Source of the DNA: a virus | Length of the DNA: 64,000 nt | Direction: 5' to 3' (one strand) | IMG/VR virus record: IMGVR_UViG_3300028045_001344 | Span: 1-64,000 of that record | Shown: piece by piece, positions 5,588 to 60,415 of the stretch | Numbering within the stretch: the stretch's first letter is position 1 | How the letters are laid out: each line of letters starts with the position of its first letter | The notes under the pieces: model-generated | Seen by the model: the letters and a program-made list of their open reading frames with translations, nothing else | What the model was told of the DNA's origin: nothing | The model's database searches: none | Position numbers and translations under genes: made by a program

Positions 5588-5590
5588 TTC

Positions 5591-6741: not shown

Positions 6742-6743
6742 AA

Positions 6744-19881: not shown

Positions 19882-20509
19882 CAGCGATGCCCCACTTTAC
19901 GGCTTGCTCGGCACTAAAATATGTATCTGTCTTTTTTCGGAATATTGCTTTAAGTTCCTTGAGGCTTAGTTTCGTTTCTTCAAGGAGTGCGCTTGTTAGT
20001 TGTTGCTGATACCATCGTACTTCGCGAATATCTGTTTCTAGTTCTTTGATAGAACCAAAGTGACCACCTTGAACGGAGTGCATCATCAGCCTACAATTCT
20101 TTCCAACCTTGCGTTTGCCGGGTGTTCCCCCTGCTAAAAGTAAAATACCAGCAGACATAATCTTTCCTACGCCAAATGTTTCTATGTCGCAATCCCTTCT
20201 AACCAATCGCATACAATCATAGATAGCAAACATGTCCTGAACGTGGCCACCCTCGGTGGAAACAAGAAGCTCAATAGGATCGCAAGGTTCATCAGGATTT
20301 TCCTTTTTGGATTGCTCATCGCAGATTTTATCATGCAAAATTTGAAGGGCTTGAATTGCCTCTCTCCCTTGATCTTCGTTAATCTCTCCATAGATGGCGA
20401 ACGATCTTAAGTAAGAGTCTCCGCCCAAATCGGGAAACATTAATACTTGGGGTTCATCCTTGTCTTCAGTGTCTTCGGCTTCGCCAGGTGCTTCTTCATT
20501 GGTCGTCAT
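19868..20509 (-). CDS. clpP: ClpP-like serine protease
   Basis: A 213-residue S14-family protein. After an acidic 20-residue head come a strand R-S-F-A-I-Y-G-E-I-N, V-S-T-E-G-G-H-V (substrate loop), G-x-x-x-S-A-G with catalytic Ser near 119, and C-R-L-M-M-H-S-V-Q-G-G with catalytic His near 144. The C-terminal T-Y-F-S-A-E-Q-A-V-K-W-G-I-A-D-E-I is the usual ending. ClpP forms a barrel that normally works with a Clp ATPase; none is seen in this window. ClpP homologues occur in many phages either as auxiliary proteases or as capsid-maturation proteases. Its place beside the endolysin does not favour the latter, but it cannot be excluded. Confidence 0.9.
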   Translation of the reverse strand: MTTNEEAPGEAEDTEDKDEPQVLMFPDLGGDSYLRSFAIYGEINEDQGREAIQALQILHDKICDEQSKKENPDEPCDPIELLVSTEGGHVQDMFAIYDCMRLVRRDCDIETFGVGKIMSAGILLLAGGTPGKRKVGKNCRLMMHSVQGGHFGSIKELETDIREVRWYQQQLTSALLEETKLSLKELKAIFRKKTDTYFSAEQAVKWGIADEIV

Positions 20510-24193: not shown

Positions 24194-27100
24194 TTACCCC
24201 ACTAATATAAAATTATGCTTAACAGAGCGAGTCGAAAAACCCCACTGGTCATCATAATCTAGTTTTGTTATATATGGTCGGTTCAGATGAACCTTGTCTT
24301 CAGATCTCACATTCCAGCACTTAATGTCCGTGCTTTGACAAGTATCGTCAATCACATTTATAATCCAAAAGTCCCGACCATTCTTTGTTTGCCTGACGGT
24401 TACGCTTCTTGGAATAAGCCAACACAGCCCCAGGTCTTTATCAAATTGTGCGATGGGAGGAACGCAGTTGTGTTCTATTCGTTCGCGTACCTTTTTGTCC
24501 ATAACCAACTCAAACGGAAAGATTCCCGTAAGAGAAACAACATTCTCAATTCGTTCTTCTTCTGTAAAATCTATCTCACCACAATACTTGGTTATATTAT
24601 CCTCAAGCCTCTTTTTGTTCTTTGGTCGATCACTTACGGTTGAAAGCCATAAGTGCTTACAATGTTTAAAGCGATCATCTGCAATAGAATCACAAGCACC
24701 GGACCTCACCAGAACATCCAAAGCCTTTTTATTTAATTTAGAATAGCTGACGTTCTCGTTGAATAGAAAATCCTCTACATGTTTAAAGGGTCGGTTCTGT
24801 AAAATTTGATCCATGGCTTTTTCGCCAAGACCTTTGATGGAGGTGAGAGGCTGAACTAGCTGACCATCTGTGGATATATCCCACGATCTTCCTGAAGTAT
24901 TTATTTCAACTTCTTGGATGTCATAGCCCAAATTCTTTACTACATTAATGGCTCGCTCTTTTCTGCCCTCGGGTTCTTTATTCAAGAACGCCGCACACCA
25001 TTCAGCCGGATAGTAATTTAGAAGCCAAGCGCACTGGTAAGATAGTATACTATAACCGACAGCATGGGACTTATTAAAACCATAACCACTAAAATACTCA
25101 AAAGTGTTCCAAAGGTCTTCTGCTTGTTTTTTGCTAATTCCCTTTTCTGAACATCCTGCCACGAACTTAGTATGAATTCTAGTCTTTTCCTCTGCACCTT
25201 TTCCTGTTCCTTTCTTTGTTAATAGTTTGCGTAAAAGATTACCCTCGTCCAAGGAAATGTCTTTTCCCAGTCGGTGGGCAAGCAAAGCAATCTGCTCTTG
25301 GAAAATCAAAAACCCATAAGTTTCTTCCGTCACTTCTTGTATGATTGGGTGAGGATATTTTATGTATTGTGGATTTTCTTTTGCCTCTACATAATCTCTA
25401 TCGACCTTTGCGCCTAACGGTCCTGGTCTAAAGATGGAAGTGATCGCCGCGATATCGACCAAACTTGTTGGCTTGGCTTTTTTACAAAAGCCCTGTGCTC
25501 CTGGTTCTGTGAATTGAAAGACACCAGCCCATTTACCTTTATGGAAAATGTTTTTATAAATATCCTGATTATCAAAGTCTAGTTTATCAGGATGCAAGTG
25601 CTCATCATAGAAATTCTTAATCTCTACAAACAAGGGATCTGTAATCCCTTTGTGCCTCTCTAGAACTTTGCCAATGGCATCTTCAATCATTCTAAGAGTG
25701 CTCAAGCCAAGAATGTCAAATTTGATAAAGCCCATTGGTTCAAGATGCCTGACGTTTTGTCCTTCGGTCCAAGGTGTTTGTCTTACTCCACCACTATAGA
25801 TCAAGGGCATATATTTATTTAAGTTCTCTCCGACTACAAGACCACCGGCATGGCGCGAACAAGATCTAACCTGTCCAACTAGAGTGCGGACATGTGTTTC
25901 TACTTCTGGATAATCTCTAAGGAATTGTTGCAGCGTTGTGCTATACTTCATTACTTCATCAAAAGTCGGAGCGTAGACACCTGTCTTTATACCATGATCC
26001 CTTTTGGCTGGTCCTATTGATTCGCCAACCATTTTGCTTGTAACTTTATTAACCTCCTGAAAGGGTACTTTATAAAGCTTAGAAATGTCTTTTATGAGTG
26101 ACCGTAGTTGTAGCGTGTTCCAGTTAGAAATCGGAACTACATTATCTTCACCCCATTCCTTGACTAACATTTCCTTCAGCACAAACGGATCTGACACATC
26201 ATAATCAATGTCTGGATAATCTGTTGCGTCTGCTCTCAAGAACCTAGAAAATAATAGCCCATACTTAATAGGATCTACTTGTGTAATGCCCAAAGCATAC
26301 GCAACTAATGATCCACCGGCTGAACCTCGCGATGGCCCCGTTAACTGTGTTGATGTAGCTTTGTCGGCAATCGCTTTCATTGTTAAAAAATATCTGCTAA
26401 AGCCGCGGTCCTTGATAACCTCTAGTTCATGCTTGAGGCGATCAAGATATTCTTGACTGTGTTTGGTTTGCGATTGCAAGCCATTGGATGCAGCAACACT
26501 CAATGCGGTATCTTCATCTAGTCCATCGGGTATAACAAAAGATGGGAGCCTAACTGTATTGTCTGGATAAAACTTTTCAATTCTGTTGTGAGCTATATCA
26601 TAAGTTCGCTCAATAGATTCCATAATCAGATCGTCATCATATTTCTCACCCAACTGTGAAGAATACTTTTTATAGGATTCCCACATTTGATCTCCGTTTT
26701 TAGGATATAGTTCGTGAGGAACCTGCTCTAGTGATTCTGGCATGTCGCCATGAAATGCCGCCAGGCCTGGGTGGAGTCTCTTATATAATTCACGATCTTT
26801 CCACACTTCGGGGTTGTAAAAGTGGCTGTCGCAAGTGGAAATGAGTTCCACTCCATATTCTTTTGCAACCTGAATAACAAAATGATTAAGATTGTGTTGG
26901 TCTTGATCGCTCCACCACTGAAGTTCACCATACCATCTATCTCCAAAAATACCTAACATATTCTCGGTTGTTGTTCGCATAGCCTCTAGTATCTTTTCAT
27001 CACCGTCATCTTTATTTTTCCAATAATCTGTAGCATAAACTCCACCTAAACACGCACTAGATGCGATGACGCCCTCGCCATGTTCGCGGAGCATTTCTAA

Positions 27101-27586
27101 ATCAATTCTTGGGAACCGATAAAAGTTTCCTGGCTTATAAGATTGAGACACCAACTTGAATATATTATTTAATCCAGTTTGGTTTTGAGCTAGAAGAACC
27201 AAGTGAGAGCGACGATTGATGCCGTCTTTAACTTTCTTTGAAGACACTTCGTTTTCTACAGCAAACCCAGTATTGGCTTTTTCTTTTTTTCTTTTCTTGT
27301 CCGCTTTTGCTTCTTCGTTAAGTATTGCCCACTCTTTAATAGAGGGAATGAAATATGCCTCGCATCCATAAATGGGTTTAAAGTTCTTACCCTCCTTTTC
27401 CATTGACTTGGCGTGAAGAACCTGATAGGCTAGTCCATTACAGTTGCCATGATCAGTTAGTGCAAGCGCATCCATACCATTTTCATAGGCAAAGTCCATG
27501 TGCTGCTGTGGATAACCGATGGCGTCGAAAGGCGAACCAGCAGTGGAATGGGCATGTAATCCTACAAACGGAATCTTTGATTTCAT
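24194..27586 (-). CDS. dnaE: Family C DNA polymerase (DnaE-type alpha subunit)
   Basis: A 1130-residue bacterial-type replicative polymerase. Residues 1-270 are the PHP domain (L-H-A-H-S, T-D-H-G-N). The palm has G-P-S-R-G-S-A-G-G-S-L-V-A-Y and, near residue 458, D-Y-P-D-I-D-Y-D, carrying the catalytic Asp pair of the P-D-x-D-x-D signature. G-Y-G-F-N-K-S-H-A-V-G-Y-S is the usual fingers block, followed by a helix-hairpin-helix region (S-I-K-G-L-G-E-K-A) and an OB-like end. It is complete through the active domains but slightly shorter than E. coli DnaE (1160), without a recognisable tau-binding tail. A second polymerase (family A) is at 40919-42151. Confidence 0.96.
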   Translation of the reverse strand: MKSKIPFVGLHAHSTAGSPFDAIGYPQQHMDFAYENGMDALALTDHGNCNGLAYQVLHAKSMEKEGKNFKPIYGCEAYFIPSIKEWAILNEEAKADKKRKKEKANTGFAVENEVSSKKVKDGINRRSHLVLLAQNQTGLNNIFKLVSQSYKPGNFYRFPRIDLEMLREHGEGVIASSACLGGVYATDYWKNKDDGDEKILEAMRTTTENMLGIFGDRWYGELQWWSDQDQHNLNHFVIQVAKEYGVELISTCDSHFYNPEVWKDRELYKRLHPGLAAFHGDMPESLEQVPHELYPKNGDQMWESYKKYSSQLGEKYDDDLIMESIERTYDIAHNRIEKFYPDNTVRLPSFVIPDGLDEDTALSVAASNGLQSQTKHSQEYLDRLKHELEVIKDRGFSRYFLTMKAIADKATSTQLTGPSRGSAGGSLVAYALGITQVDPIKYGLLFSRFLRADATDYPDIDYDVSDPFVLKEMLVKEWGEDNVVPISNWNTLQLRSLIKDISKLYKVPFQEVNKVTSKMVGESIGPAKRDHGIKTGVYAPTFDEVMKYSTTLQQFLRDYPEVETHVRTLVGQVRSCSRHAGGLVVGENLNKYMPLIYSGGVRQTPWTEGQNVRHLEPMGFIKFDILGLSTLRMIEDAIGKVLERHKGITDPLFVEIKNFYDEHLHPDKLDFDNQDIYKNIFHKGKWAGVFQFTEPGAQGFCKKAKPTSLVDIAAITSIFRPGPLGAKVDRDYVEAKENPQYIKYPHPIIQEVTEETYGFLIFQEQIALLAHRLGKDISLDEGNLLRKLLTKKGTGKGAEEKTRIHTKFVAGCSEKGISKKQAEDLWNTFEYFSGYGFNKSHAVGYSILSYQCAWLLNYYPAEWCAAFLNKEPEGRKERAINVVKNLGYDIQEVEINTSGRSWDISTDGQLVQPLTSIKGLGEKAMDQILQNRPFKHVEDFLFNENVSYSKLNKKALDVLVRSGACDSIADDRFKHCKHLWLSTVSDRPKNKKRLEDNITKYCGEIDFTEEERIENVVSLTGIFPFELVMDKKVRERIEHNCVPPIAQFDKDLGLCWLIPRSVTVRQTKNGRDFWIINVIDDTCQSTDIKCWNVRSEDKVHLNRPYITKLDYDDQWGFSTRSVKHNFILVG

Positions 27587-32927: not shown

Positions 32928-34790
32928 TTAGATAAATTTAACTTCACATGCGCCACCGGCACATGCTACTTCACCAGACAAATTAGTATTGTCATCCACT
33001 TCTATAATCTTGGTTAAGTCAATCTCCTTTAATGAATCGATCATACTATTGTATGTAGCCTCATCACAGTCTTCAAATGGTGCCTGGACATAGTTTCCGC
33101 CGCTAAACGGAAGGACAGATAGTCCATTATAAAATTCACGATTCTTCCACATCCATTCGCCCACCTCATCCCATTCATGATCTTTGATAGAAACTGTAGC
33201 ACTAATGTTATGGGTATTGTTTCCTGAATTGTGACCCGGACGAATCCATTTCTCTGAAAATCCTTTCACTCGTTGCAAGAGTTGTAGGGCCGTTTCATCA
33301 CGTAAGATTGCACCTTCGGGGGCTTTTTGAGGGACCGAAATCACGGCTGTGTCGTGTGGTCTGAAATATTCATCCTCTACTAACTCTGGATGATTGGCTG
33401 ACAGGTAATGATAAATATCTTCGTTCTTTCCGACACGCAAGCGACGAATATAATAATCACTATGCCATGCGTGTATCCCACTAGAACAGCCAAGCACAAT
33501 AGAAGAAGTTCCGGCTGGCTTGATGGTGGTTACTCTTGCGGCGGATCGAATACCAATCAACTCGGCAACTTTTTTGTTTTCCTCTACTGCAATTTGTGCA
33601 GCTTCTTCAAGATCAAATTCCTGTACTTTGCCAGAGCCAACGCCGGTCATACTCACTCCAACTAATGCTTCACGCTCTGTGGTGCGTTGCCAAACAGATC
33701 TCAAATAATGAAACTGTGTATATCCAGCCTGAAGCGTTCCCAGGAAAGATGCTGCTCGCACTCGCTCATTTAAATCTTCTTGACTCGTTACATCGGAAAC
33801 GTTTACTTCACAAAGATTGCAGAACTGAAAAGGTCGTAAGGCAATTTCGCAACAAGGATTAGTTCCCCAATCCTTATCATTAGTAAAATAAATTCCTGGT
33901 TCTCCTGAGTTAGAAAGTTGTATGCGTTGCCAGAGTTCTTTAAAAAATTTCTTGCGTATGCGATGTCTTACAAGAGAGGCACTGTTGTTCGCTCTAGCCC
34001 GTTGGGGATTTGTCTCCCACCAACTACCAGACTTACAGGAAATCATTTCTTTATCGTCCGCTGAAAACAAACTAATAAGAGCAGCACGTCTTATTCCCCC
34101 TGCCAAAACTGCGTCTGCGATGTGGCAAACAATATCATGAACTTCAATGGGCTCAAGCTGATCACCGTCGAGCTTCTCATTTAAAATTCCTTTAATCTGG
34201 CGGATACACGTCTTGAGTGGTTCTGGACCAGGAGCTTTGCCACCAGAAGTTACAAGCTTTGCACCCTTGGATCTAATATCGCTAAAGTCAAAATCTATTG
34301 TGGAGGTTCCCTCAAAATAAGAGCGCATCAATACTTTAACAGCATCAGCCCATCCCTCGATAGAGTCACCAACTAAAAAACGGCGCTTACGATCTTCTCG
34401 GGGCTTGCGGATCTCTGGTAGCTTTTCTACATGATGTTTTTGTACTGAAAAGCCAACACCAGTTCCGCCTAAAAGCAAAAAAAGAATTTCACTAAAAGCT
34501 CGCCAATCATCGACAGGCAAATAGCCACAGTTATAAATACGGTTAGGGCTAATTTCAATTGACTTCCCCGCGAACTGCATTGAACGCATAGAGGGAAGAA
34601 CCTTCCTGTCTTCCACATATTTGTATGCCGCATCTATTTCTCCATTAAGCATCGTATATTTTTTCCGATGCATTTCTTTATTTCTTCCAACAAGTTCCTT
34701 CCAGTTTTCTCTACGATTTTTTTCCTCCATATGTTTCGCATATTTCATAAAGACAGTTATGTCTGATAAGATCTTGCTTGAGATGTCCAT
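32928..34790 (-). CDS. nrdJ: Class II (adenosylcobalamin-dependent) ribonucleotide reductase
   Basis: A 620-residue monomeric RTPR-type enzyme. Features: L-P-S-M-R-S-M-Q-F-A-G, N-R-I-Y-N-C-G-Y (first redox Cys), G-G-T-G-V-G-F-S-V-Q, N-P-C-C-E-I (second-site region), F-C-N-L-C-E-V-N (finger-loop thiyl Cys and Glu), T-I-K-P-A-G-T-S-S-I-V-L-G-C-S-S-G-I-H, and a terminal C-A-G-G-A-C reducing pair. It reduces ribonucleoside triphosphates using a B12 cofactor and works with or without oxygen. The host must provide cobalamin. Co-directional with helicase and small genes. Confidence 0.95.
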   Translation of the reverse strand: MDISSKILSDITVFMKYAKHMEEKNRRENWKELVGRNKEMHRKKYTMLNGEIDAAYKYVEDRKVLPSMRSMQFAGKSIEISPNRIYNCGYLPVDDWRAFSEILFLLLGGTGVGFSVQKHHVEKLPEIRKPREDRKRRFLVGDSIEGWADAVKVLMRSYFEGTSTIDFDFSDIRSKGAKLVTSGGKAPGPEPLKTCIRQIKGILNEKLDGDQLEPIEVHDIVCHIADAVLAGGIRRAALISLFSADDKEMISCKSGSWWETNPQRARANNSASLVRHRIRKKFFKELWQRIQLSNSGEPGIYFTNDKDWGTNPCCEIALRPFQFCNLCEVNVSDVTSQEDLNERVRAASFLGTLQAGYTQFHYLRSVWQRTTEREALVGVSMTGVGSGKVQEFDLEEAAQIAVEENKKVAELIGIRSAARVTTIKPAGTSSIVLGCSSGIHAWHSDYYIRRLRVGKNEDIYHYLSANHPELVEDEYFRPHDTAVISVPQKAPEGAILRDETALQLLQRVKGFSEKWIRPGHNSGNNTHNISATVSIKDHEWDEVGEWMWKNREFYNGLSVLPFSGGNYVQAPFEDCDEATYNSMIDSLKEIDLTKIIEVDDNTNLSGEVACAGGACEVKFI

Positions 34791-34792: not shown

Positions 34793-36169
34793 TTAATTCG
34801 TCCCCTTTATTAGTTTTTTGTATTTGTCTAGCATAAATTTAACTTGTTCTTCATTTGAAAGTGCCGGTGATGATGCCGCATCATTTTCATATTTACCCAA
34901 CACCTTAATATCGACATTTGCGGGGTCCATAAAGATAGAGAACACCAAGCCGTCAGCACCATTTCTATTCTTGGCAATATAAATTCTTCCACCATTTGTT
35001 TGCTTATCCTCTGATGTTCTTGAAACAGAAAAGATAAAGTCCGCGATGAAGCATTTATTGAAAGCCTCAGATATTGCTTGCATGGTGATAATTTCTTGGT
35101 TGAGCCCTGTTCGGTTAGTTTGAGAAGCTGTCCACCCAACACAATTATTTTCTTGCATAAGTGCGCGGAGGTCTTCATAGATCGTTTCTAGTTCTTCTCT
35201 CTTTTCTTTACGCGCAGACAATGTGCGTAACAGATCCGCATAATCAACAATAATCATGTCTGGAATAGTGCCTTGTTGTTTAAGTTTTTCCAGATGAGCG
35301 CGAATTGTATTGGTGGTAGCTGTTTTCGTGGGATACTCTTTTATAATCAAGCTTCCATCTAAACCATCTAAAGTTTTCTTGATGTCCACTTTACGATCCT
35401 TGACTTCGTTCAAGCGAATTCCTGTGATACACGAATCATAACGACCAGCGATGACAGTATCACCCAACTCAAGCGTGTAATGCACCACGGTCATTCCGGC
35501 TTTCACGGCAGTCGCGCCAAGATGAACTAAGACCATTGACTTTCCCACACCAGTAGGAGCGATTACGACACCCAATTCTTTGCGACCACCACCACCCCCG
35601 GTGATCTGATCTACTTTTTCCCATCCCGTCGTGATTGTTTCGCGGGTACTAAGTTCAAATCTTTTTTCAAAATCTTTGATATAATCGTAACCAAAATCTG
35701 CATTTGCACCAGCCTTCAACGCATCATTTATGAGTACAGAAATCTCATCAAAAGAGCATTTTTGGAGGAGTGTAGACGATTTTATCATCGCCTCTCGTAA
35801 CTTCTGCTTACGGCAGAATTCCAAAGCGGTGTCTTTTACAAATTCGGCTGATTGTAATATGGTAATATCAGATAAGACATGAGCAAAATACTCTCTTATT
35901 TGTTTCTGAAGTGTTTCATTTTCGTCTTCTATTTGAGAACGAACAATCGTCTTCATTATTTCAGTTGATGGTTGGGTTCCGTATTTTGTTTTGTAGTTGA
36001 ATATTTTTTGAACAAAAACTTGCAGATGCTTGAATTCTAAAAACTCAACATCCAATACTTCTACCATGCGATCAGCAAAGACGCGATCATCTAATATAAG
36101 AAAGGCTAGTTTTTCCTGAAAGGATTTACCATATTTTGAAAATGAGGCGGGGTCGGTTTTTAAGGTCAT
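34793..36169 (-). CDS. Replicative DNA helicase (DnaB / T4 gp41-like)
   Basis: A 458-residue hexameric-helicase type protein. An N-terminal helical domain (residues 1-150) precedes the RecA-like motor: T-G-W-E-K-V-D-Q-I-T-G-G-G, Walker A A-P-T-G-V-G-K-S (204-211), L-E-L-G-D, Walker B M-I-I-V-D-Y-A-D-L-L near 305, and motif W-T-A-S-Q-T-N-R. It unwinds the fork 5'-3' for the polymerase. The RNR gene follows two bases after its stop. No primase gene is seen in the window. Confidence 0.95.
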   Translation of the reverse strand: MTLKTDPASFSKYGKSFQEKLAFLILDDRVFADRMVEVLDVEFLEFKHLQVFVQKIFNYKTKYGTQPSTEIMKTIVRSQIEDENETLQKQIREYFAHVLSDITILQSAEFVKDTALEFCRKQKLREAMIKSSTLLQKCSFDEISVLINDALKAGANADFGYDYIKDFEKRFELSTRETITTGWEKVDQITGGGGGRKELGVVIAPTGVGKSMVLVHLGATAVKAGMTVVHYTLELGDTVIAGRYDSCITGIRLNEVKDRKVDIKKTLDGLDGSLIIKEYPTKTATTNTIRAHLEKLKQQGTIPDMIIVDYADLLRTLSARKEKREELETIYEDLRALMQENNCVGWTASQTNRTGLNQEIITMQAISEAFNKCFIADFIFSVSRTSEDKQTNGGRIYIAKNRNGADGLVFSIFMDPANVDIKVLGKYENDAASSPALSNEEQVKFMLDKYKKLIKGTN

Positions 36170-36233: not shown

Positions 36234-37217
36234 TTAAGTGCCACGGAGTAAATAGTCTCGGTGGTCGGCAAGAAACGATCTAAATTTCTGAAATAATGGA
36301 TTCCAGTTGTATTCATGTATGCCATCAGTCGCCATCATTTTTAACACTTCGGTTCTATTGAGGGTAGGGGCAAACTGTTCTACTGTGTCTTTTATATGTA
36401 GTGAATTTTTAACAGAAATAGAGGGAGAATAAAGTTGCATTAATTTATAATTTAGTTCCACCTTTTTCTTCTCCTTTAAAATATCTTTATATAATTTGAG
36501 CCCAGTCTCATCACTTCTGCAATACTTAAACACCTCGTCGGGAGTATAAGATTTTTCTTCCCGCAAGAAACTTAATTTTTTAGATATTGTCTTCATGCCC
36601 GCGCCCTTTATGCCCGGTAAGTTATCAGACTTGTCACCATCAATGGCTCGGGCAAGCGCGAAATTGTTAGGATGAATATCAAACTCCTCAAGGATTCGAT
36701 TCTTGTTTAAGAAGATGTCCTTGATCGGTTTATACACCAGCGTCTTGTCGTCACACAGTTGATAAAAATCTTTGTCCATAGACACAATAATCTTTATGTC
36801 TTCTTTGAGTGAAGGCATATGACAAATGTATCCTATCACATCGTCAGCCTCAATGTCTTCTACCATCAATTGTGCGACGGGCATCTTGTTAAGATACTCA
36901 ATTGTGCGCTTCATTTGATCATAACGATTTTGTGTTTCTTCTAGAGCATCCATACCGCTATAGGCTCGGTTTAGTTTGAGTGGCTTGCGCCCTTCTTTGT
37001 ATTGCTTCGCCAAGGTTCTGCGCTTGGCACTACCACCTCCACCATCCCAAACAACAATTATCTTATCTGGATTTATCTCTCGTGCTGTCTTTTGTAAGGA
37101 CATCAAGAAACCTTTCGTTCCACCAATGGGTGATCCCGTCGCACTAATGCTAGGGTTCATAACATAGTTGCGAATGAATGTATTCATCGCGTCAATGATT
37201 AAGATTTTATTCGCCAT
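36234..37217 (-). CDS. 5'-3' exonuclease / RNase H (FEN family)
   Basis: A 327-residue FEN-type nuclease like T4 Rnh. Catalytic blocks: I-L-I-I-D-A-M-N-T-F-I-R, V-V-W-D-G-G-G, V-E-D-I-E-A-D-D-V-I-G-Y, I-V-S-M-D-K-D-F-Y-Q-L, and the helix-hairpin-helix G-I-K-G-A-G preceded by D-G-D-K-S-D-N-L-P. It removes RNA primers and 5' flaps. The start overlaps the small unknown gene upstream by 19 bases. In T4, rnh also lies near the recombination/SSB genes. Confidence 0.95.
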   Translation of the reverse strand: MANKILIIDAMNTFIRNYVMNPSISATGSPIGGTKGFLMSLQKTAREINPDKIIVVWDGGGGSAKRRTLAKQYKEGRKPLKLNRAYSGMDALEETQNRYDQMKRTIEYLNKMPVAQLMVEDIEADDVIGYICHMPSLKEDIKIIVSMDKDFYQLCDDKTLVYKPIKDIFLNKNRILEEFDIHPNNFALARAIDGDKSDNLPGIKGAGMKTISKKLSFLREEKSYTPDEVFKYCRSDETGLKLYKDILKEKKKVELNYKLMQLYSPSISVKNSLHIKDTVEQFAPTLNRTEVLKMMATDGIHEYNWNPLFQKFRSFLADHRDYLLRGT

Positions 37218-37600
37218 CGCGCTTCGACCTTGTTGAAATTATCGGGGAAATGCTTCTTTAGAAACCTAAGCATCTGACCCGTGTTACGACTCACTGCTTG
37301 TACGTCAAGAGCAGAGTTCTCTGTATTATAAGAAAAAACCATCTGTTTGTTGAGAGTGAGGAAGGAGCCATCCATAAAATATAGCCTGATCATACTATGC
37401 TTGTCCCATAAATTTGGCGCAAATGGGCCGGGGCACAATTCTTTCACCTTATTTAGTAGATCTTTCTTCTCCTTCATTTCACGCCAAACTTCTTGCTCTA
37501 CTCTGCGCGTGTTATGTTCAAGGAGAGCATCCGTTTTCTCTATCCGTCGTTGCTTGGTTCTGTCATCGAGAACAAATTTTGCCCAACTAGGAATGGTCAT
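37199..37600 (-). CDS. Small unknown protein between uvsX and rnh
   Basis: A 133-residue protein with a basic N-terminal helix (D-R-T-K-Q-R-R-I-E-K-T-D-A-L-L-E-H-N-T-R-R-V), then C-P-G-P-F-A-P-N-L-W-D and a strand-rich part M-I-R-L-Y-F-M-D-G-S-F-L-T-L, ending F-P-D-N-F-N-K-V-E-A. It overlaps uvsX by 14 bases and rnh by 19. In T4, small genes (dsbA, 33, 59) occupy the interval near rnh and 32, but I see no match to any of them. A recombination or helicase-loading accessory is possible from context only. Confidence 0.6.
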   Translation of the reverse strand: MTIPSWAKFVLDDRTKQRRIEKTDALLEHNTRRVEQEVWREMKEKKDLLNKVKELCPGPFAPNLWDKHSMIRLYFMDGSFLTLNKQMVFSYNTENSALDVQAVSRNTGQMLRFLKKHFPDNFNKVEARWRIKS

Positions 37601-38717
37601 TTTGCTTTACCCCCTCAACATCATCACCATAAAAGTCTTCTGACTTGCCGGTCTTGGTTTCAAATTTACGAATAACTTCTTCATCCATAATATCATAAAC
37701 AAGTTTGGCAAACTTTTCGTCGGTCTGCATTAGCTTAGGGAAGGTTGCGCCTTGGAATTTCTTATCGTATCCATCAAGCGTAAACCACGCTCCACTATTC
37801 TTTAACTTGTCCGATGTTTTGATCGCAGTCAACAAGGATTCATCATTGAGGATACCAACATCCTCGCCTCCCCATAGAATTTTAAAGTTACAGATGCGAC
37901 CCTGTGTTCCAAACTTGGATTTCTCTAGCTTGGCTTTCACTTCGCTGCCGATTCTAAAACCTGCTTCATCTTCTACAAAGGTCTTCTTTCCTTTTAGACC
38001 CGTGAGCCATATTCTTAATGAATAGGCATAGATCATAGCCTTACCACCAGGAGTAAACCAGGGTTGCGAAAGCATCATCATTGGGTTAGAGACATTAATA
38101 TTTGTCTTGAGTTGGTTCAGGACCAACAAGGTTGATTGTGTTCTCGATAAGGACACCACCAATTTCTTCATACCCAAAGATAGAACGCGAGGCATTTGTG
38201 CCATAGAAGATTGGGGATTGAAATCCTTTTCCAGATCCGCACGACATGGAGTCATCGCGAGTGAGTCAATAATAAATAAGAAACGAGTGTCGGGATCACC
38301 AGCCATAACGGTTTCCATTGATTCCAATACCTGCTCAATATCATCAGGCTGGATTATGATAACACTATCCTCGCCATCTACAGTGCAACCAAGTTTCTCT
38401 AAAAACTCTTTGCTCATTGTAGATTCAGAATCAAAGTAGAGAACTTTAATATTCTTCTTCTGTGCTTCCCTCGCTACTTGTCCAGCCATATAAGACTTGC
38501 CTGAACTTTCTAAGCCAGCGATCTCGGTGCAGCGACCAACTGGGATACCTGCGAGTTGACCACGACAGGTAATGGAGTCGAGCCATCGTGAGCCTGTGGA
38601 GATCCAATCCTTTACATCAGCCGGATTCTCTTGATCGCCAGTAAACGCAATTGTTCTTCCCGCTTTTTTATTTATTAGTTTTAAAATATCTTTCGATGAT
38701 AAGTTTCCGTTGCTCAT
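37587..38717 (-). CDS. uvsX: UvsX/RecA-like recombinase
   Basis: A 376-residue recombinase. ATG at 38717 (or 38723, six bases earlier) both follow AGGAGAGGG; further upstream in-frame codons lie within the terminator hairpin. Walker A is G-L-E-S-S-G-K-S (about 68-75), then V-L-Y-F-D-S-E-S, L-F-I-I-D-S-L-A (Walker B), and L-N-Q-L-K-T-N (loop 2). The C-terminus is acidic (D-D-V-E-G-V-K-Q), like T4 UvsX. It drives strand exchange and recombination-dependent replication, with the SSB encoded just upstream. Confidence 0.96.
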   Translation of the reverse strand: MSNGNLSSKDILKLINKKAGRTIAFTGDQENPADVKDWISTGSRWLDSITCRGQLAGIPVGRCTEIAGLESSGKSYMAGQVAREAQKKNIKVLYFDSESTMSKEFLEKLGCTVDGEDSVIIIQPDDIEQVLESMETVMAGDPDTRFLFIIDSLAMTPCRADLEKDFNPQSSMAQMPRVLSLGMKKLVVSLSRTQSTLLVLNQLKTNINVSNPMMMLSQPWFTPGGKAMIYAYSLRIWLTGLKGKKTFVEDEAGFRIGSEVKAKLEKSKFGTQGRICNFKILWGGEDVGILNDESLLTAIKTSDKLKNSGAWFTLDGYDKKFQGATFPKLMQTDEKFAKLVYDIMDEEVIRKFETKTGKSEDFYGDDVEGVKQNDHS

Positions 38718-38734
38718 AATCATGCCCTCTCCTA

Positions 38735-38796
38735 CAAAAAAGAAAGCCCCGTGGCTCGATGAACAAACCAATAAACAAAAAAGTCACGGGGCTTTC
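38735..38796 (-). terminator. Intrinsic terminator between SSB and uvsX
   Basis: Perfect 12-base arms (GAAAGCCCCGTG / CACGGGGCTTTC, 38785-38796 and 38742-38753) around a 31-base loop, followed on the transcribed strand by TTTTTT. It ends transcription after the gp32-like gene. The uvsX ribosome site follows immediately, so readthrough or processing may set the SSB to UvsX ratio. Confidence 0.85.
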
Positions 38797-38818: not shown

Positions 38819-39550
38819 CTACGCTGATAATTCCCGAATGGCATCATCAACACCGGAAGGCGCGGTGGCGCTAACAGCTTCCATCGTGCCGCCAGAAGGA
38901 TCAAGATACGATTCCAAAATCGCCTGAACCTCGGTGGTGGTTTTTTTGGTAAACAAAGCATCCACATCAGGAATTGAATCCAAAAGAGCCTTGATCTCGC
39001 CTTTAGGGGCAAGTGCAGAAGACTTACGTTTTGGAACCAAATTGGTCTGCGGAAATGCACCCTTAGTTTTCGGCAAAGTATAAGTCAATGTAAAATCAAC
39101 TCCTGTCTGTACCTCGGTGATGTCACCGTAATCAGGATTCAAGACATAACCAAGCAACGCTTCGTAAATTGTCTTTCCGTAACCCCAGATGCGAACACCC
39201 GCTTCTTCTTCACCACGCACAATTACGGGTGAGAAAAATCTCTGACGAACAAAAAGGCTCTTTGCCATTTTTTTGCTCTCATCAGTTCCCTCTTGCCATA
39301 GTTGTGAAGCGAATTCACAAACCGGACAACCGTCACCAAACTGCCGCTTGGGACACAACACACCACCACGAACATTATCACCTAAGTTATAATGAAAGTG
39401 GAAAACCTTGAACGGATCTCCATCCTCAGTTGGTACAAGTCGAATCTCTTGATCCCCCTCGGTTGGTCGCCAAAAAGCATTATCGCTTTTCTTTCCACCC
39501 GATTCGGATTCCTGTAGTTTCGCTCGCATCTTTGCTAAATCTAATGCCAT
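38819..39550 (-). CDS. Single-stranded DNA-binding protein (gp32-like)
   Basis: A 243-residue protein with a charged N-terminus (M-A-L-D-L-A-K-M-R-A-K-L), an OB-like core containing H-F-H-Y and a zinc cluster C-P-K-R-Q-F-G-D-G-C-P-V-C (Cys about 66, 75, 78), the hallmark of T4 gp32. It ends with an acidic/hydrophobic tail (D-D-A-I-R-E-L-S-A) that in gp32 recruits replication proteins. AAGGAG precedes the start and a strong terminator follows the stop. It coats ssDNA for replication and recombination. Confidence 0.93.
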   Translation of the reverse strand: MALDLAKMRAKLQESESGGKKSDNAFWRPTEGDQEIRLVPTEDGDPFKVFHFHYNLGDNVRGGVLCPKRQFGDGCPVCEFASQLWQEGTDESKKMAKSLFVRQRFFSPVIVRGEEEAGVRIWGYGKTIYEALLGYVLNPDYGDITEVQTGVDFTLTYTLPKTKGAFPQTNLVPKRKSSALAPKGEIKALLDSIPDVDALFTKKTTTEVQAILESYLDPSGGTMEAVSATAPSGVDDAIRELSA

Positions 39551-39564: not shown

Positions 39565-40440
39565 TTAAGGTGAGGTCGGCAAATCTTCCGACCCCCCAAT
39601 TGTTTTTGTTTGCCCTTGAATGGCTGAAGTATGCGCGACACAATAAATGTAATCTTCATCATAATCAGTTTCAAAGATTCCGTATGAAACCCGCACATCG
39701 GCTTCCATTTTTCTCTTAAGAGAATTCTTTATCTCTCCGAACAAATTGTTTTCTGTTTCCAGTCTCATCTTGTTACAAGCATAATAGTATACCCGATCAC
39801 TCACGTTGTCAAGAGAAAAAAACATCTTATCTACATTTTTTTTTGGCTCCACAAATCCAATAGTAGAAATGCGGGTTCCAATAGGTAAAGAAGAAAAGGT
39901 GTCAGTCACAGGGGGAATGTGATTGAATACATTAATCATATGTAGTGAAGACACGATGGCTTCATTAAGACTAACATAGTGATTCTTCAAGGACGTAGGA
40001 GGTATTGCCCTCTCTACTAAAACGTTGTCCACAAGATAGAGTCGATCAAAAACACCAGATCGAGCATACTCTTGCAGGACATTGAAGACCAAGTTATTAA
40101 TTAATTTTCCTTGTGCTCCTAAAAAATCTTCTTCTGGCTTTATGTATAGCACACTAATGTTACAGTGTCGTAAATATTCTAAAAGAGAAAGTGATGTGAC
40201 GGAGGCTTTTCCGCCGCCGCCTACCACAAATAGAATATCCCCACTCACCCCTTCAAAAAACTTAGTCATATCCGGGCAATTCTTTTCATAATCTTCAATG
40301 TTTTGGCTCTCTTTTAGACTAAACGTATTGGCACTAGGCGACAAGCCTATGTCTATTTTATATGCCTTATATTGAGAATATTGAGCAAAGTTATCTGCGA
40401 TGGCGCAACCTGCTTTGCCTAGTCCGATTACTGTATCCAT
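39565..40440 (-). CDS. Tubulin/FtsZ-like GTPase
   Basis: A 291-residue protein with a tubulin/FtsZ-type N-terminal domain: I-G-L-G-K-A-G (6-11), a Y-K-I-D strand end (27-30), D-I-L-F-V-V-G-G-G-G-K-A-S-V-T-S (68-83, matching the G-G-G-T-G-S/T-G phosphate loop), L-V-D-N after a V-L-Q-E-Y-A helix, and N-E-A-I-V-S-S-L-H-M-I-N (159-170, the N-x-x-A/I-x-x-x-D-like helix). The G-box is degenerate (G-G-G-G-K-A-S), so GTPase activity is uncertain. The C-terminal part is shorter than FtsZ. It lies 14 bases from the SSB gene. Phage tubulins (PhuZ, TubZ) position DNA or capsids. Confidence 0.7.
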   Translation of the reverse strand: MDTVIGLGKAGCAIADNFAQYSQYKAYKIDIGLSPSANTFSLKESQNIEDYEKNCPDMTKFFEGVSGDILFVVGGGGKASVTSLSLLEYLRHCNISVLYIKPEEDFLGAQGKLINNLVFNVLQEYARSGVFDRLYLVDNVLVERAIPPTSLKNHYVSLNEAIVSSLHMINVFNHIPPVTDTFSSLPIGTRISTIGFVEPKKNVDKMFFSLDNVSDRVYYYACNKMRLETENNLFGEIKNSLKRKMEADVRVSYGIFETDYDEDYIYCVAHTSAIQGQTKTIGGSEDLPTSP

Positions 40441-40617
40441 TTACTTCTCTTTGGTTTCGCCGTATGACACCAGTTCAAACGTGGGGCTATTGCGATATCG
40501 CCCAACATGATTGGAAACCTTCTCGTTGAGCACAATCATTATTGCTTCTGGATCAGTGCTCACTAATGTAACTTCTTCGCCGTTTTCTATATAAACTAAT
40601 TTATATTTCTTGCTCAT
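40441..40617 (-). CDS. Small basic protein, 58 aa
   Basis: Starts at ATG 40617, eight bases after AGAGG and overlapping the MazG-like stop (ATGA). The product, M-S-K-K-Y-K-L-V-Y-I-E-N-G-E-E-V-T-L, is beta-rich and charged. An in-frame longer start at 40650 would overlap the upstream gene. No function recognised. It directly precedes the tubulin-like gene (no gap). Confidence 0.5.
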   Translation of the reverse strand: MSKKYKLVYIENGEEVTLVSTDPEAIMIVLNEKVSNHVGRYRNSPTFELVSYGETKEK

Positions 40618-40922
40618 TCCGAAACCTCTTGTAAAACATAACGCCTCCAAAATCCTCCGCGTTTGCGGTTTTTGATAATCCGTGCCCCTTCAAGATCCCA
40701 TTTATTTATTTCAGCAATTGATAAAAGAACTTCCTGAATGTCCGCTAGTTCTTCTACGCATGGCTCCTCAAGAAACTCTTGAACTTCTTCTGTGAGTTTG
40801 TCCTTGAGTCTTTGTTGATAGTCGTCATTGACGGCTACATAAACTTTGCACTTCTTTCCCTGCTCATTAATAATCTCTGGGATCTTATCTCTCACAAGTT
40901 TGTTATATTTTTTTGTTGTCAT
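40614..40922 (-). CDS. MazG-like nucleoside triphosphate pyrophosphohydrolase
   Basis: A 102-residue protein with the all-alpha NTP pyrophosphohydrolase pattern: Y-N-K-L-V-R-D-K-I-P-E-I-I, L-T-E-E-V-Q-E-F (E-E-x-x-E metal site), V-E-E-L-A-D-I-Q-E-V-L, then K-R-G-G-F-x-x-R. It resembles the phosphoribosyl-ATP pyrophosphohydrolase-like branch of MazG proteins. It hydrolyses NTPs or dNTPs and is common in phages for nucleotide-pool control. Overlaps the family A polymerase by four bases. Confidence 0.88.
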   Translation of the reverse strand: MTTKKYNKLVRDKIPEIINEQGKKCKVYVAVNDDYQQRLKDKLTEEVQEFLEEPCVEELADIQEVLLSIAEINKWDLEGARIIKNRKRGGFWRRYVLQEVSE

Positions 40923-42151
40923 CTAAACCTCTTTAAGTTTCCAAAGTGTGTTCCAAGGCTGGTGTTCACTTTAAACTTTCCTAAATCCGTATCACCGAAT
41001 TTTTTAATTATATCATCGATAAGATCTTTGTCTTCCCGATGAAAGTCAATTACCATGCTATCGTGAATGAGCCCCATTGTAAAGGACTTTTTATTTTCTA
41101 ATAATTTATTTACTGCGATTGCTCTCCTTAAGAATGTATCGGAAGTGGTGCTTTGTATAACTGCATTGAGAGCATGGAACTCGTCGGCTATAATTTTTCG
41201 ACCAAACGGATTGGTGACGACGCTTCCGTCCCAATATTTATTTAATACTTTTCTTTTGTCATAGTGTTTTTCTACTTGGGGAATACCAAGTGATGCACCC
41301 AAAGGGCCATAAAGCCATCCAAAGATTTTGCGCTTGATGTCATCACGATTCAACTTGTGATCTGATAGCCTATTAAAAATTGATCCATGCCAATCATGTA
41401 TGTCCTGTTGTGGTTGCTCTTGATCGTTCAGCGCAAGAAGACAGCGCAACTCCGCTGCATTGAAATCCAATTCGATAAACCAAGTATTCGTTGGTTTAAC
41501 CACTCTCCGGTAATCCTTGCTCATTGTAAGCAGTGGAAAAGAATTTTTATGGGTGGTCAAGCGACCAGTAATCGTCCCAAACATATTGTAGTCAATAAAT
41601 GGTCTTACCGCATTTAGCTTGGAATAAAAACTTCGAGTTTTAGTTTCGTGAAGTTTATCAACAATTTCCTTCGGCTCAATTAATAATTTATGATCTCGGA
41701 TATCAGTTAATAATCCCGACAACTCAACTAAAAAACTATAGTCTTCTGGTTCTGGGATAGTAGATAATACATGTTTTGTTATTTGACTCTTGAGGTTAAA
41801 ATATTCAATTACAAAACTGTGTGGAACTAAATCATAAAAACACTCCTCGTCCAGTTCGCAGAATCCAGTCTGGAAAGATTTAATATAAGCCGAGTATTTT
41901 TTCTTAATGGTGGACCATTCTTTTTTTAATTCATCGGGGCAACACTCGTCAAGGGTTCTCGTCTTGGCATACAAGGACGCATACTTGATACCATAGCCCT
42001 TTAAGGTTGAATGATATGCCCACGTCTTGGAGAGACGCCCATAATCTGGATCTTCTACAATGTGATTGTCGCAATAAATGCTCTTACAGTGTTGTTTTTG
42101 ATCTACGATTTCGAACAAAGAGGTATCTGGTTTATGGTTGGAAAGATCCAT
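40919..42151 (-). CDS. Short family A DNA polymerase (PolA-like)
   Basis: A 410-residue polymerase with the family A active site. Motif A is E-L-D-F-N-A-A-E-L-R (near 229); motif B is R-D-D-I-K-R-K-I-F-G-W-L-Y-G (near 272-285, with the R, K, F and Y at the conserved spacing); motif C is I-H-D-S-M (near 362). The 3'-5' exonuclease domain is absent or degenerate and the first 200 residues are not recognisable. Start is probably ATG 42151 (an in-frame start at 42178 is possible). The window also has a full DnaE. A gap-filling or repair role would fit. Confidence 0.9.
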   Translation of the reverse strand: MDLSNHKPDTSLFEIVDQKQHCKSIYCDNHIVEDPDYGRLSKTWAYHSTLKGYGIKYASLYAKTRTLDECCPDELKKEWSTIKKKYSAYIKSFQTGFCELDEECFYDLVPHSFVIEYFNLKSQITKHVLSTIPEPEDYSFLVELSGLLTDIRDHKLLIEPKEIVDKLHETKTRSFYSKLNAVRPFIDYNMFGTITGRLTTHKNSFPLLTMSKDYRRVVKPTNTWFIELDFNAAELRCLLALNDQEQPQQDIHDWHGSIFNRLSDHKLNRDDIKRKIFGWLYGPLGASLGIPQVEKHYDKRKVLNKYWDGSVVTNPFGRKIIADEFHALNAVIQSTTSDTFLRRAIAVNKLLENKKSFTMGLIHDSMVIDFHREDKDLIDDIIKKFGDTDLGKFKVNTSLGTHFGNLKRFR

Positions 42152-45100
42152 CAGGTAGAACAATATCATAGACATCACGCAAGGTCAAGGCTTTTTGTTC
42201 AGTTATATTTTTGAATTTATTTATTATTTTATCATCCTTGTTTTGAACCGTCAATCCTGATTTGTCCTCGAAGACCCCGTTAGTCTCATGCGCGATGCGC
42301 TGTAATGATTTCGTAAATTTATTGGAATCACTTGATGCCAATGAATTGGAATAGAGATTTTCTATCTGTTTTATCATCGCATCCTCCTCACTAAAGGATA
42401 AGATTCGATCTGATTCAGAAATGCGTATAGCAAAATAAAACTTAAGCCAAAACAAATCATCATATGTTCGCATAAATTCTACATCACTCAATAGTTCGCG
42501 AGTTTCTATCTTCTGAAATGTTCCGTCTCCACATTTATTAAACTGGCTAGTGACAATGAAGGGGTGCTTCGCCACATAAGAGTTATAAAAGTTCAAGGTA
42601 TAGATTTGTAGCAAGTCGATGTCGGTTTCAAAAGATCGGATATATTCACCAGGAGATCGAAGAACGGGAGGGTTGTGCAAATATAAATTATCAAAACTTA
42701 AACGTGGTAACGTCAACCAATCAGCGTAATCCACCACCCACTTATCATAGGCTGATTTTCGCAACTCCCATTCACGTAGCAGCCGTGGGTGGTCATTGAT
42801 GGCTTGAGTATATTGTTCGCGCTTAGTAGAATATTCCTCGACATCCCCAAAAGCCAAAACCCAATCTTTTTCGCGAGGGGGCTCGTCGGGATACGCAGTG
42901 TGACTTCCATAATCAAAAGGAAGTGTTTCGAATGTGTCAAGCGAAGGCTGGCTCTCGGCTTCGTTGTATGGCGTAGTCGTAGATGGAACTTCAATTGGGG
43001 CGCACCCTCCGTCAGATGCAACACTCAACACAAACAAGAGCATATCTGCATATCTGTTAGTATCAGTGGGGTCAAGTGAAATTAAATATCTCACGATCTC
43101 ATCCATTTCTCGGGGAGTGATGGACGGAGATGAAGTGTTCGCGCCATTACTGGCACTTTCCCAGGGAATGATAGCCTCTCTAAATCGAGGGTCATCTACA
43201 AATAAATATCTGGTTGGCTGTTGAGGAAACGTTTCCCCGGCACGTCGATATACTTCACGACGCCATCTTTCATAAGGAGTAAATTGACCATCAATCATGT
43301 TTCCATCATTCCACTGACGGCCGTTCAATATGCGAGCATATGCGCCGCTAAAATCAACCTTCTTAATAACAAAATCGCTCCGATAATTACTTGCCACCGT
43401 GGACAAATTGGTTGAGTCATCTACCCCCGCAGTACCCGCATCGCTAGCTCCGGTTCCTGAACTATTTCGCTGCCACTGAAACCAGTGAAATGGGACAACG
43501 CCCATGCCACTAAATGGTTCGCGAGAATAAGCCACGAAGTATCCAGGGGCGTTGCTGATCCACGATGTTCCAACTGATAGGGGCGGGATCTCGTTTCCTG
43601 TAAGTTGTTTTATGGGAACACCACCCAGAAGTTGAGAACTCAAAATTAGAATAATCTCAAACAGATCAGCCAATGCGCCGCCAAAGAGATCTCCCATTTG
43701 ATCGTCAGGCAAGCCTTTTTCGTAAGAGTTTAAAGAATTTAAGTTCCCACTTCCGTCCGAAAGTTCTCTCGGGACACGGTATGTCTGATATTCATTCCCA
43801 TTACGAAAAGGATAATTTTTAACTGGATAACCACTGTTATCTGGTGTTGCTATTTGATATCGTTCAATCTTTGTTTCACAACTACCAAACACAGGAGGAG
43901 GGTGAAAAATATATCTGTTATTTCCCGCCTCGGTGCCATAAGCTGCGGCTCCTAAAGTTGCGGTGCGGGCTTGCCACTGATTATAAACAAATTGATGAAG
44001 ACATGGTTGCTGCCCGGATGGGAGAGCTTGCCATCCAAAGCCCCCGCGAGGAGATCGTCCAAAAATGTCTGGACCTATTTCGGCTCGGATTACTAATTCC
44101 TGCCAAGATGGGGCTCGCTCTAGAATCCCAGGCTGATTAACTAGGTTAGGGGCTCTATCAAACTTTGAGCCATCTTCATTAGAGGTGATATATTTTATCC
44201 AGCTCGTAAGAAATTTATGCTTGCCAACAATGTCCCACCCCAACCGGGTGCGTAAAAATTCCAACTCGCCAGTCTGGGGTAATTGATCGCCTCCTCTCAA
44301 AACGGGGGTACATAGTCGATTAGCATTACGCCCGAATGGTTGTCCAATCGTGGGATCTAATTCTGGTGACTGATAGCCGCCACCTCCCGGATGAAGACCA
44401 TCCTTTTGTTTCTTGAAAGGAAATGGAAAAAGTTGGTTAGGGCCGAAGCCAGTGCTTATAGTCTCATCAGCCAAGTCTCTCGGCACCTGTGTTCTTGCGA
44501 GCGTAGGCAGATTTGTACCGGAAACTATGAGGTGAACATTCCGGGTTGCTCCAAGCCAGTTAGTATATTCTTGCGTTGAATTCTCATTCCATTCGCGCCA
44601 AACTTCAGCGATTTCCGCTTTGAGTTTGCTGTATATCCATGCAGGACCAAAAGCTTCAGCCGCGTCGGGTGTCATCGCGAACTTATTCGCAGTGGCAGCC
44701 CATGGCAAAGTACAAACATTTACAATAAGTGTAGACACTTCATCGCGCATGTTCCCCCTTTTGTCCTGTAGTTGGAGTTGAATCGTGTGTCTCCCCGAGC
44801 GCACAGGAATAAAATAAACATCAGTTCCCGTAAGGTTTGTGGGCGAAATTGTATCCGGTGAATTGGGAGTAAGGTAAAAGGGTGTTTCAACACCGTGTTC
44901 TTCGTCTTCTAATACTGTCCAAGTATAAGATTTGATTTCACTAGAAAACGTGTTTATGGTACTACCAGCCGCACTTATGCGAATTGGTTGTGGCTTCCAT
45001 GCGCCCAATCCAGTTCGTCGTGAAAATGTACTACCGAATCCACCCACATCATAATACTTATAAACAGTCTCCCGTAATACTTGCCCGTTTCGTGTTTGGG

Positions 45101-59179: not shown

Positions 59180-60415
59180 CTATCCTGTATAAATCCCCAT
59201 TGGGACATGCGTCATTACTGCTTCTGCGTCCGCTGCCATTTCAGCATCGCCTTTGATCAAGGCACCATAAGTCAATTTTTCTAGTTGAGCTTTTAGTTCT
59301 TCTTTGAGTTTTTCTTGTTCCTCTTTTGCCTGAGATAAAAGATCAGAGGCATTTAGGGTTATATCGTTGCCTGGAATTGGAATGGTTGCAAATTTACCTC
59401 TTATCTGGCCGAGCATTTCTTTAGATATAGCAAGGGCATATTTTCTAATCCATTGTTTACCTATACTATTGATATTATTGTAAGGCAAGTTGGCAAACGG
59501 AAGTGTGTTCATGTTATTGATGCCGTCCACACCAACTTGAGCTGCGGGGTCTTGCGTCCAAGTATCTTGCGGGATACTAAAGTTAAACCACATTCGTCGC
59601 GGATAGCTTACGCAAGGAGGTGGATATATTTTTAAATAATTATCTCGTATTTCATAAGAATAGTGACTTCCGCGTGTATAAAGATTTGTTTCAAATTGTT
59701 GTGCTTGTAATTTGTTCTGCCACGCAGGAACGATTTCAAAAGTGGAGTCGTCGGCATACATTCCATAAGAACTTAGGTTTCCATAAACACCACCACCAAC
59801 ATTCATGTATCCAAAGAATCGCCACATAGCGGCGGGGGATTTATAATAAACTCGTTCAATTCTTACTTTCTTGTTTTGAACCAAGTCTTCCCACACACTC
59901 CCCGACTGTGATGCTGAAACGATTGACTGAAGGTTGTAATCCTGAACTCCACCCGTCAGCGCAAATGATGCTGAATACATACGAACATTATCGCCAAAAC
60001 CCGCAGATTGGGCTAAACCACTTCCGATACGTTCCGAATAGGCAAAGTCAAATGTAGGAAATTTTAAAGCGACAGACGAACCACTAAGGCTGGATGAGAG
60101 TGGGCCTGCTTTCATTTCTCCGTCTTGATCAAAGGTTCCCGTTGTCGCACCGAGAAAATCAGATAAAACATTCTCAGCTTGATGGGAATTGATGATTGAA
60201 GAATATTCTAAGACTCCCAATTCGTATGAAGTATATACGTTCCCCTCCATAAGTTCAATATCAAGAACATCGCCGCCTAACATTTTATATGTAAATGCAA
60301 CCTGATCAACAGCCCCCGAAATAAAATCATCATTATCTAAATATACTCCATAAGGTAAATTCGCGCTTGTCACATTCGCCGCATTACCAGTAACCGGCAA
60401 GATAACCTTGCTCAT
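59180..60415 (-). CDS. Neck / head-completion protein (gp13-like position)
   Basis: A 411-residue protein with Y-E-L-G-V-L-E-Y-S-S-I-I-N-S-H-Q-A (a helix typical of gp13-like proteins), V-R-I-E-R-V-Y-Y-K-S-P, E-I-R-D-N-Y-L-K-I-Y-P-P-P, then I-R-K-Y-A-L-A-I-S-K-E-M-L-G-Q-I-R-G-K-F and a terminal coiled-coil helix. Lies directly after the major capsid terminator and before gp14-like. It has no Shine-Dalgarno of its own and overlaps the stop of an 11-codon leader frame (ATGA), so translation may be coupled to it. Confidence 0.72.
   Translation of the reverse strand: MSKVILPVTGNAANVTSANLPYGVYLDNDDFISGAVDQVAFTYKMLGGDVLDIELMEGNVYTSYELGVLEYSSIINSHQAENVLSDFLGATTGTFDQDGEMKAGPLSSSLSGSSVALKFPTFDFAYSERIGSGLAQSAGFGDNVRMYSASFALTGGVQDYNLQSIVSASQSGSVWEDLVQNKKVRIERVYYKSPAAMWRFFGYMNVGGGVYGNLSSYGMYADDSTFEIVPAWQNKLQAQQFETNLYTRGSHYSYEIRDNYLKIYPPPCVSYPRRMWFNFSIPQDTWTQDPAAQVGVDGINNMNTLPFANLPYNNINSIGKQWIRKYALAISKEMLGQIRGKFATIPIPGNDITLNASDLLSQAKEEQEKLKEELKAQLEKLTYGALIKGDAEMAADAEAVMTHVPMGIYTG

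Follow-up and report, generated by a model that had tools for sequence, protein, structure and literature searches.

A protein with a predicted, degenerate tubulin/FtsZ fold encoded directly ahead of SSB in the replication operon of uncultured phages

Introduction

The phage tubulins known so far, PhuZ and TubZ among them, are GTPases that assemble into filaments. The viral DNA analysed here, a stretch of 64,000 nucleotides (the window) from IMG/VR record IMGVR_UViG_3300028045_001344, contains an ORF with some tubulin-like motifs that lies among genes of DNA replication. This raises the question of whether its product belongs to the tubulin/FtsZ superfamily and, if so, what it does there. A sequence-only reading had pointed to the tubulin/FtsZ GTPase domain on account of a G-x-G-x-A-G start, a G-box and an N-E-A-I helix. 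All these motifs are present in the ORF, which we named tub1: GLGKAGCAIAD at residues 6-16, VVGGGGKASVTS at residues 72-83 and LNEAI at residues 158-162. The ORF starts with an ATG, has exactly the following boundaries, and is single-copy in its 151,553-bp virus record, which includes the window.

39565..40440 (-): tub1, predicted degenerate tubulin/FtsZ-fold protein, 291 aa (ORF, AlphaFold2, fold matches, family)

The tub1 family

Single-protein searches of IMG/VR yielded 33 tblastn-confirmed loci with tub1 relatives, and a 17-row profile extended this number to at least 597 stretches (597 of 600 confirmed by tblastn). Among seven close copies, dN/dS ranges from 0.10 to 0.16 (20 of 21 pairs, one pair being saturated), showing that tub1 is under purifying selection. 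These relatives and the low dN/dS rule out a chance ORF. The tub1 protein of the window and 106 full-length relatives (107 sequences) have a median pairwise identity of 43% and a minimum of 29%; many contigs are near-identical, with 90 clusters at 95%. All tub1 motif counts given below are based on an alignment of 60 rows (A2, 72% identity cut).

The window protein has no match in Pfam (E<=10), PHROG or NCBIfam. It does not reach the curated cut-off of PF00091 (Pfam Tubulin), with nothing at E<=10, and one of 17 family members reaches this profile, with an E-value of 0.0054. Searches of PDB sequences with phmmer and profiles gave chance matches only, and no tub1 relative was found in INPHARED by tblastn. 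In GTDB genomes, a search of limited sensitivity, made with two short peptide patterns, gave 9 pattern matches and 0 tub1 relatives. Literature searches of the open-licence PMC library listed no description of the family. The family is large and uncultured, and apparently belongs to marine phages; its description provides annotators with a family that the searched copies of Pfam, PHROG and NCBIfam miss.

Predicted fold of tub1

The AlphaFold2 model of tub1, obtained with 17 alignment rows, has a pLDDT of 89.9 and a pTM of 0.88, and shows two domains joined by helix H7, as is characteristic of the superfamily. With Foldseek, the model matched 545 PDB chains at E<=1e-3, the best being S. aureus FtsZ (2.6e-15). 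With VIA-align, a comparison in which 269 of 1000 chains were left unaligned, tub1 superposed on CetZ (3zid_B; Z 24.1, rmsd 3.0, 255 aligned), TubZ (2xka_A; Z 23.0, rmsd 3.0, 270 aligned) and FtsZ (2r6r; Z 22.2, rmsd 3.8, 270 aligned), with Z scores that are too close for the nearest subfamily to be named. Based on this model and these matches, tub1 almost certainly has the tubulin/FtsZ fold, as the sequence-only reading had proposed. That reading had called for structure prediction, with another Rossmann fold as the opposing outcome; the match obtained is full-length and to tubulin/FtsZ. Similarity to other Rossmann-type proteins is restricted to weak matches of single members to TrkA_N (E 0.01) and GFO_IDH_MocA (0.22), and such an assignment was rejected.

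Conservation of the nucleotide and interface motifs

The positions in tub1 of the superfamily motifs, and of a family hallmark that is not a known tubulin motif, are as follows; tub2 is a second tubulin of the same genome, described below.

40396..40425 (-): T1 loop, residues 6-15, G-L-G-x-A-G-C-x-I-A, kept (60-member counts)
40189..40221 (-): place of T4 (G-box), residues 74-84, degenerate (60-member counts)
40057..40074 (-): QEYARS, residues 123-128, family hallmark (Q123, R127 and S128 invariant in 60)
40012..40041 (-): S5/T5 region, residues 134-143, with N139 (93%) (alignment and register with tub2)
39925..39981 (-): helix H7, residues 154-172, with N159 (93%) and a conserved HMIN (model, alignment)
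39871..39924 (-): place of loop T7 and helix H8, residues 173-190 (acidic pair not conserved, no helix in the model)

The glycine-rich T1 loop is well preserved, with 95-100% conservation at G6, L7, G8, G11 and C12 across the 60 members. The asparagines N139 of T5 and N159 of H7, which we take from tubulin positions to be those contacting guanine, are each conserved at 93% in the 60 members and are in register with those of tub2. The T4 signature of active GTPases, GGGTG[ST], is found in none of the 60 members, the family exhibiting approximately G-[SA]-G-x-[IV]-S-G-A-S-L at this place; the degeneracy of the G-box, seen earlier in the single sequence, is therefore a family-wide property. The columns of the T7 slot are variable. 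The best acidic ones are those of D180 (41% D) and residue 187 (48% E), and D-x-x-D/E occurs in 12 of the 60 members, outside conserved columns; no acidic pair of the NxDxxD type is conserved. No helix H8 is present in the model between residues 172 and 191.

Only some 20 residues, most of them modelled with low confidence (pLDDT<50 at 279-290), follow the strand 264-271, in agreement with the short C-terminal part reported previously. This tail varies among members, and the long linker and conserved C-terminal peptide of FtsZ are not found. The C-terminal helix H11 and the acidic tail of the PhuZ/TubZ type are absent from the model. The earlier remark that tub1 is not obviously PhuZ or TubZ is borne out by the missing H11 and by a different gene neighbourhood.

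Seven residues, L7, G8, D30, L84, Q123, R127 and S128, are invariant across the 60 members. Three of them lie in QEYARS, the most conserved stretch of the family, for which we know of no counterpart in tubulin or FtsZ. Judging from this conservation, QEYARS may be the family's own working site.

Taken together, these features make tub1 a genuine member of the tubulin/FtsZ superfamily, albeit a degenerate one. The fold is already known; the family, absent from the three libraries and from the literature searched, is a branch of the superfamily lacking the sequence marks of an active GTPase and the anatomical marks of PhuZ and FtsZ. Since the T4 signature is lost, the T7 acids are not conserved and H8 is missing in the model, tub1 is most likely a pseudo-GTPase that would not form normal dynamic filaments. 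According to PMC3678025, the protofilaments of phiKZ TubZ, tubulin and FtsZ have an interface in common, which is formed by loop T7, S9 and the base of H8. With T7 and H8 absent, tub1 would be expected, from its anatomy, neither to trigger GTP hydrolysis in a neighbouring subunit nor to stack normally.

Genomic context of tub1

The genes surrounding tub1 in the window are all on the same strand:

34793..36169 (-): DnaB-like replicative helicase (PF03796, E 2.6e-18)
36234..37217 (-): 5'-3' exonuclease (PF02739, E 6.1e-27)
37587..38771 (-): UvsX-like recombinase (phrog_97, E 2.6e-54)
38819..39550 (-): SSB (gp32-like), next gene downstream of tub1 (phrog_1192, E 1.8e-27; synteny)
40441..40650 (-): orf69, small ORF (beside tub1 in 6 loci)
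40614..40922 (-): 102-aa ORF, presumably MazG-like (synteny; without Pfam match)
40919..42178 (-): DNA polymerase family A, 419 aa, upstream of tub1 (PF00476, E 8.4e-12; synteny)

As had been read from the sequence, tub1 adjoins SSB and a recombinase, the PHROG matches placing SSB and then UvsX next to it. Only 14 bp separate the tub1 stop from the ATG of SSB, which has a good ribosome-binding site (AAGGAG), and the TAA of orf69 directly abuts the ATG of tub1, so these genes look translationally linked.

Synteny was examined in 105 tub1 loci from 102 distinct contigs, the other loci being partial and left out. In all 102 loci with downstream DNA, the first gene recognised after tub1 is SSB; the other three loci (L026, L028 and L073) stop before the SSB place. 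The 102 loci represent 99 contigs, since L035, L089 and L092 repeat the contigs of L003, L011 and L012. In 79 of the 102 loci, tub1 and SSB are separated by no more than 100 nt; in 19, a stretch of 328-953 nt with another small ORF lies between them. In seven loci (L068, L071, L075, L085, L094, L096 and L097), the ORF in the gap is small, contains conserved cysteines and is predicted to encode a membrane-anchored product, and the other loci with a gap have a different small ORF there. Upstream of tub1, the 105 loci exhibit the family A polymerase (66), the MazG-like ORF (27) or orf69 (6); 5 loci begin there and 1 has none. In TubZRC partition systems, tubZ adjoins the gene of the DNA-binding protein TubR and centromere repeats; the recognised neighbours of tub1 in these 105 loci are the polymerase, MazG-like ORF or orf69, and SSB. 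After SSB, many loci show the order UvsX, 5'-3' exonuclease, DnaB-like helicase and ribonucleotide reductase, as far as the contigs and the recognition of homologues allow.

The cultured relatives Immutovirus and Mel-JY01 have the same operon, in which tub1 is absent. In Mel-JY01, the slot of tub1 is taken by a gene for a protein with an S-adenosylmethionine-lyase domain, which was excluded as a tubulin. The 284-kb record G033 has the same operon with other ORFs filling the tub1 slot, according to a search with the A2 profile. These relatives indicate that tub1 has been stably added in a single large group of uncultured phages and, as the operon of the cultured ones lacks it, that replication of this type can proceed without tub1.

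Two further genes of the window were observed, those of a B12-dependent-type ribonucleotide reductase (32928-34790, -) and a full-length bacterial-type DNA polymerase III alpha with PHP, palm, finger and HHH domains (24194-27586, -). This T4-like phage genome has, besides polymerase III alpha, a short family A polymerase (40919-42178).

A second tubulin in the same genome

The record encodes a second tubulin of 402 aa, tub2, outside the window at 71154-72362 (-) of G000:C1 (equivalent to L113:7154-8362), which accounts for the PF00091 match at 71718-72095 (-) of the same record. In 20 tub2 relatives, T1 (GxGGxGGK), T4 (GGGTGS), T5 (NE), H7 (AN) and T7 (FDSKDL) are invariant, so that tub2 is a tubulin with all GTPase motifs intact. 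Its model is TubZ-like (Z 32.9, rmsd 2.3, 311 aligned; pLDDT 82.5), and the protein carries an acidic N-terminal extension. When the profiles of tub1 and tub2 were aligned with hhalign, T1, T4, T5, H7 and T7 fell in register, in a match that is weak (E 0.038, probability 1.4%).

On one side of tub2 is a small ORF and on the other the prohead protease (PF03420, E 4.4e-30); the portal gene (PF07230, E 1.1e-78) lies further upstream. Four other loci have tub2 flanked by the major capsid gene and by a homologue of the 411-aa ORF 59180-60415. Its relatives in other uncultured phages are found beside head genes or elsewhere, in settings that are mostly unannotated, and a tblastn search of INPHARED gave only a weak match in Bacillus phage G (E 0.1).

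Co-occurrence of the two genes is patchy. A tub2 gene was found in 3 of 22 tub1 records (the window genome, G002 and G006) and in 3 of the 7 tub1 records above 100 kb; tub1 was found in 1 of 17 tub2 records, that of the window genome, most records being fragments. Four tub1 records of 102-184 kb have no tub2 match, the head protease being found in each, and tub1 is therefore apparently independent of tub2. An obligate tub1-tub2 pair was rejected on this basis, as far as fragment records allow. The intact second tubulin of some tub1 phages makes the idea of a two-tubulin virus testable.

Other genes of the window include nine neighbouring ORFs at 2246-8816 (-), otherwise dissimilar, which share the leader MK[LVI]L-x-E-x-WR-x-x-[LI]-x-E at or near their start; it is presumably similar to the leaders that direct internal proteins of T4, which are substrates of the prohead protease, to the capsid. 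A ClpP-like protease is encoded at 19868-20509 (-) and a GroEL-type chaperonin at 11359-12933 (-) (PF00118, E 1.7e-70). A review notes the frequent co-occurrence of HSP60 and tubulin in jumbo phages (PMC7824862).

Possible role of tub1

Based on the anatomy and the context of tub1, we tentatively favour a replication accessory or scaffold protein built on a degenerate tubulin fold, a reading that is plausible and stops short of being probable. Such a protein would still bind a guanine nucleotide or a similar ligand, would lack normal GTP hydrolysis, and would not stack head to tail by itself. Its gene immediately precedes SSB in the replication operon, and the protein would most likely act on SSB-coated replicating DNA; its conserved nucleotide face could dock a partner, which may be SSB, a different replication protein, or a tubulin filament of host or phage, bound at its end. 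The linkage to SSB is fixed while tub1 diverges to 29% identity, which points more to replication than to FtsZ mimicry. Against this role, an operon neighbourhood is not proof of contact between tub1 and SSB, a small ORF intervenes in 19 of the 102 loci, the cultured relatives have the operon but no tub1, and the sequence kinship of tub1 with tub2 is weak (hhalign probability 1.4%). If tub1 acts at the replisome, it would be a case of a cytoskeletal fold taken over for replication, and a natural non-hydrolysing tubulin with which to ask what the fold does without GTP turnover.

A more specific form of this replication role, which we consider unlikely as a whole, is that tub1 is a one-faced pseudo-GTPase at the core of the replication machine: it would bind nucleotide, be unable to lengthen a filament, and link SSB-coated DNA to the tip of a tubulin-type filament, either host FtsZ or tub2 where present. 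If true, it would represent a capping- or kinetochore-like use of the tubulin fold in a bacterial virus.

We rank the alternatives to a replication role in the order FtsZ poison or cap, atypical filament, partner of tub2, and helicase loader of the gp59 type. An inhibitor mimicking FtsZ, one of the two functions suggested from the sequence, would join or cap host FtsZ filaments by its nucleotide face and block division. FtsZ-targeting phage proteins are common (P1 Icd, T5.008, Kil, T7 Gp0.4). The loops kept on the top face and the eroded bottom face are the expected look of a one-ended subunit and, without a T7/H8 end, the growth of FtsZ filaments would stop at tub1. To our knowledge, none of the FtsZ-targeting proteins named above is a tubulin, which counts against this alternative, as does the strict linkage of tub1 to SSB in all 102 loci; typical host-takeover genes are not known to be so locked to one neighbour. 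We regard the inhibition of FtsZ as unlikely, even as the first of the rivals.

The other suggested function, a cytoskeletal protein positioning replicating phage DNA as PhuZ does, would require tub1 to polymerise through an atypical interface. The model shows the full two-domain fold, and the longitudinal contact of 201phi2-1 PhuZ is very small apart from the tail, according to PMC3678025, which indicates that the interfaces of phage tubulins vary. However, the T4 signature, the T7 acids and H8 are missing, and the model has no C-terminal helix or acidic tail like those of PhuZ and TubZ. The first three of these losses lead us to disfavour a DNA-positioning cytoskeleton, which we consider doubtful.

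A role of tub1 as partner of tub2, capping or seeding its filaments, appears very improbable: the window genome encodes both proteins, and tub2 has all GTPase motifs, but the genes are about 31 kb apart, each is found in few records of the other (most records being fragments), and four of the long tub1 records have no tub2.

Equally little credence can be given to the replacement of the T4 helicase loader gp59, with tub1 loading the helicase together with SSB, which was not upheld: the gp59 of cyanophage S-SRM01 lies three genes before SSB and the gp59 N-terminal domain (PF08993) is found in 0 of 7 tub1 records, S-SRM01 serving as a working positive control, but this domain is also missing from relatives without tub1 (G033, Immutovirus and Mel-JY01), so that its absence does not track tub1 and is a hint at most, the tub1 protein itself has no PF08993 (no Pfam match at E<=10), and the folds differ, gp59 being a helical protein.

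Comparison with known systems

With CetZ (3zid), TubZ (2xka) and FtsZ (2r6r), tub1 shares the two-domain fold over 255-270 residues, the T1 loop, and the T5 and H7 asparagines. It differs from them by the lack of the GGGTG[ST] T4 signature, of conserved T7 acids, of H8 in the model, and of a long C-terminal tail, with 13-16% identity. Its likeness to PhuZ and phiKZ TubZ of the nucleus-forming phages consists in a phage-encoded tubulin fold.

The best viral structural match to tub1 is A0A6J5RW92, annotated as 'FtsZ Cell division GTPase' of an uncultured Caudovirales phage in BFVD (TMq 0.77, E 3.8e-14), which is also the best viral match of tub2. Compared by structure model, it differs from tub1 in its length of 452 aa and has 18% identity.

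FtsZl1 is presented by Makarova and Koonin (2010; PMC2875224) as a branch of the superfamily without some structural elements (T6-H7), whose filament formation is doubtful. The tub1 protein shares with FtsZl1 the loss of superfamily structural elements, but keeps H7, lacks T7 and H8, and is encoded in a phage replication operon rather than in a membrane-remodelling context.

With tub2, tub1 shares the tubulin/FtsZ fold and motifs that are in register, whereas tub2 has intact GTPase motifs, an acidic N-terminal extension, a TubZ-like model and a setting among head genes. The tub1 family keeps the tubulin fold without the hydrolysis loop, outside its usual settings, in a replication operon.
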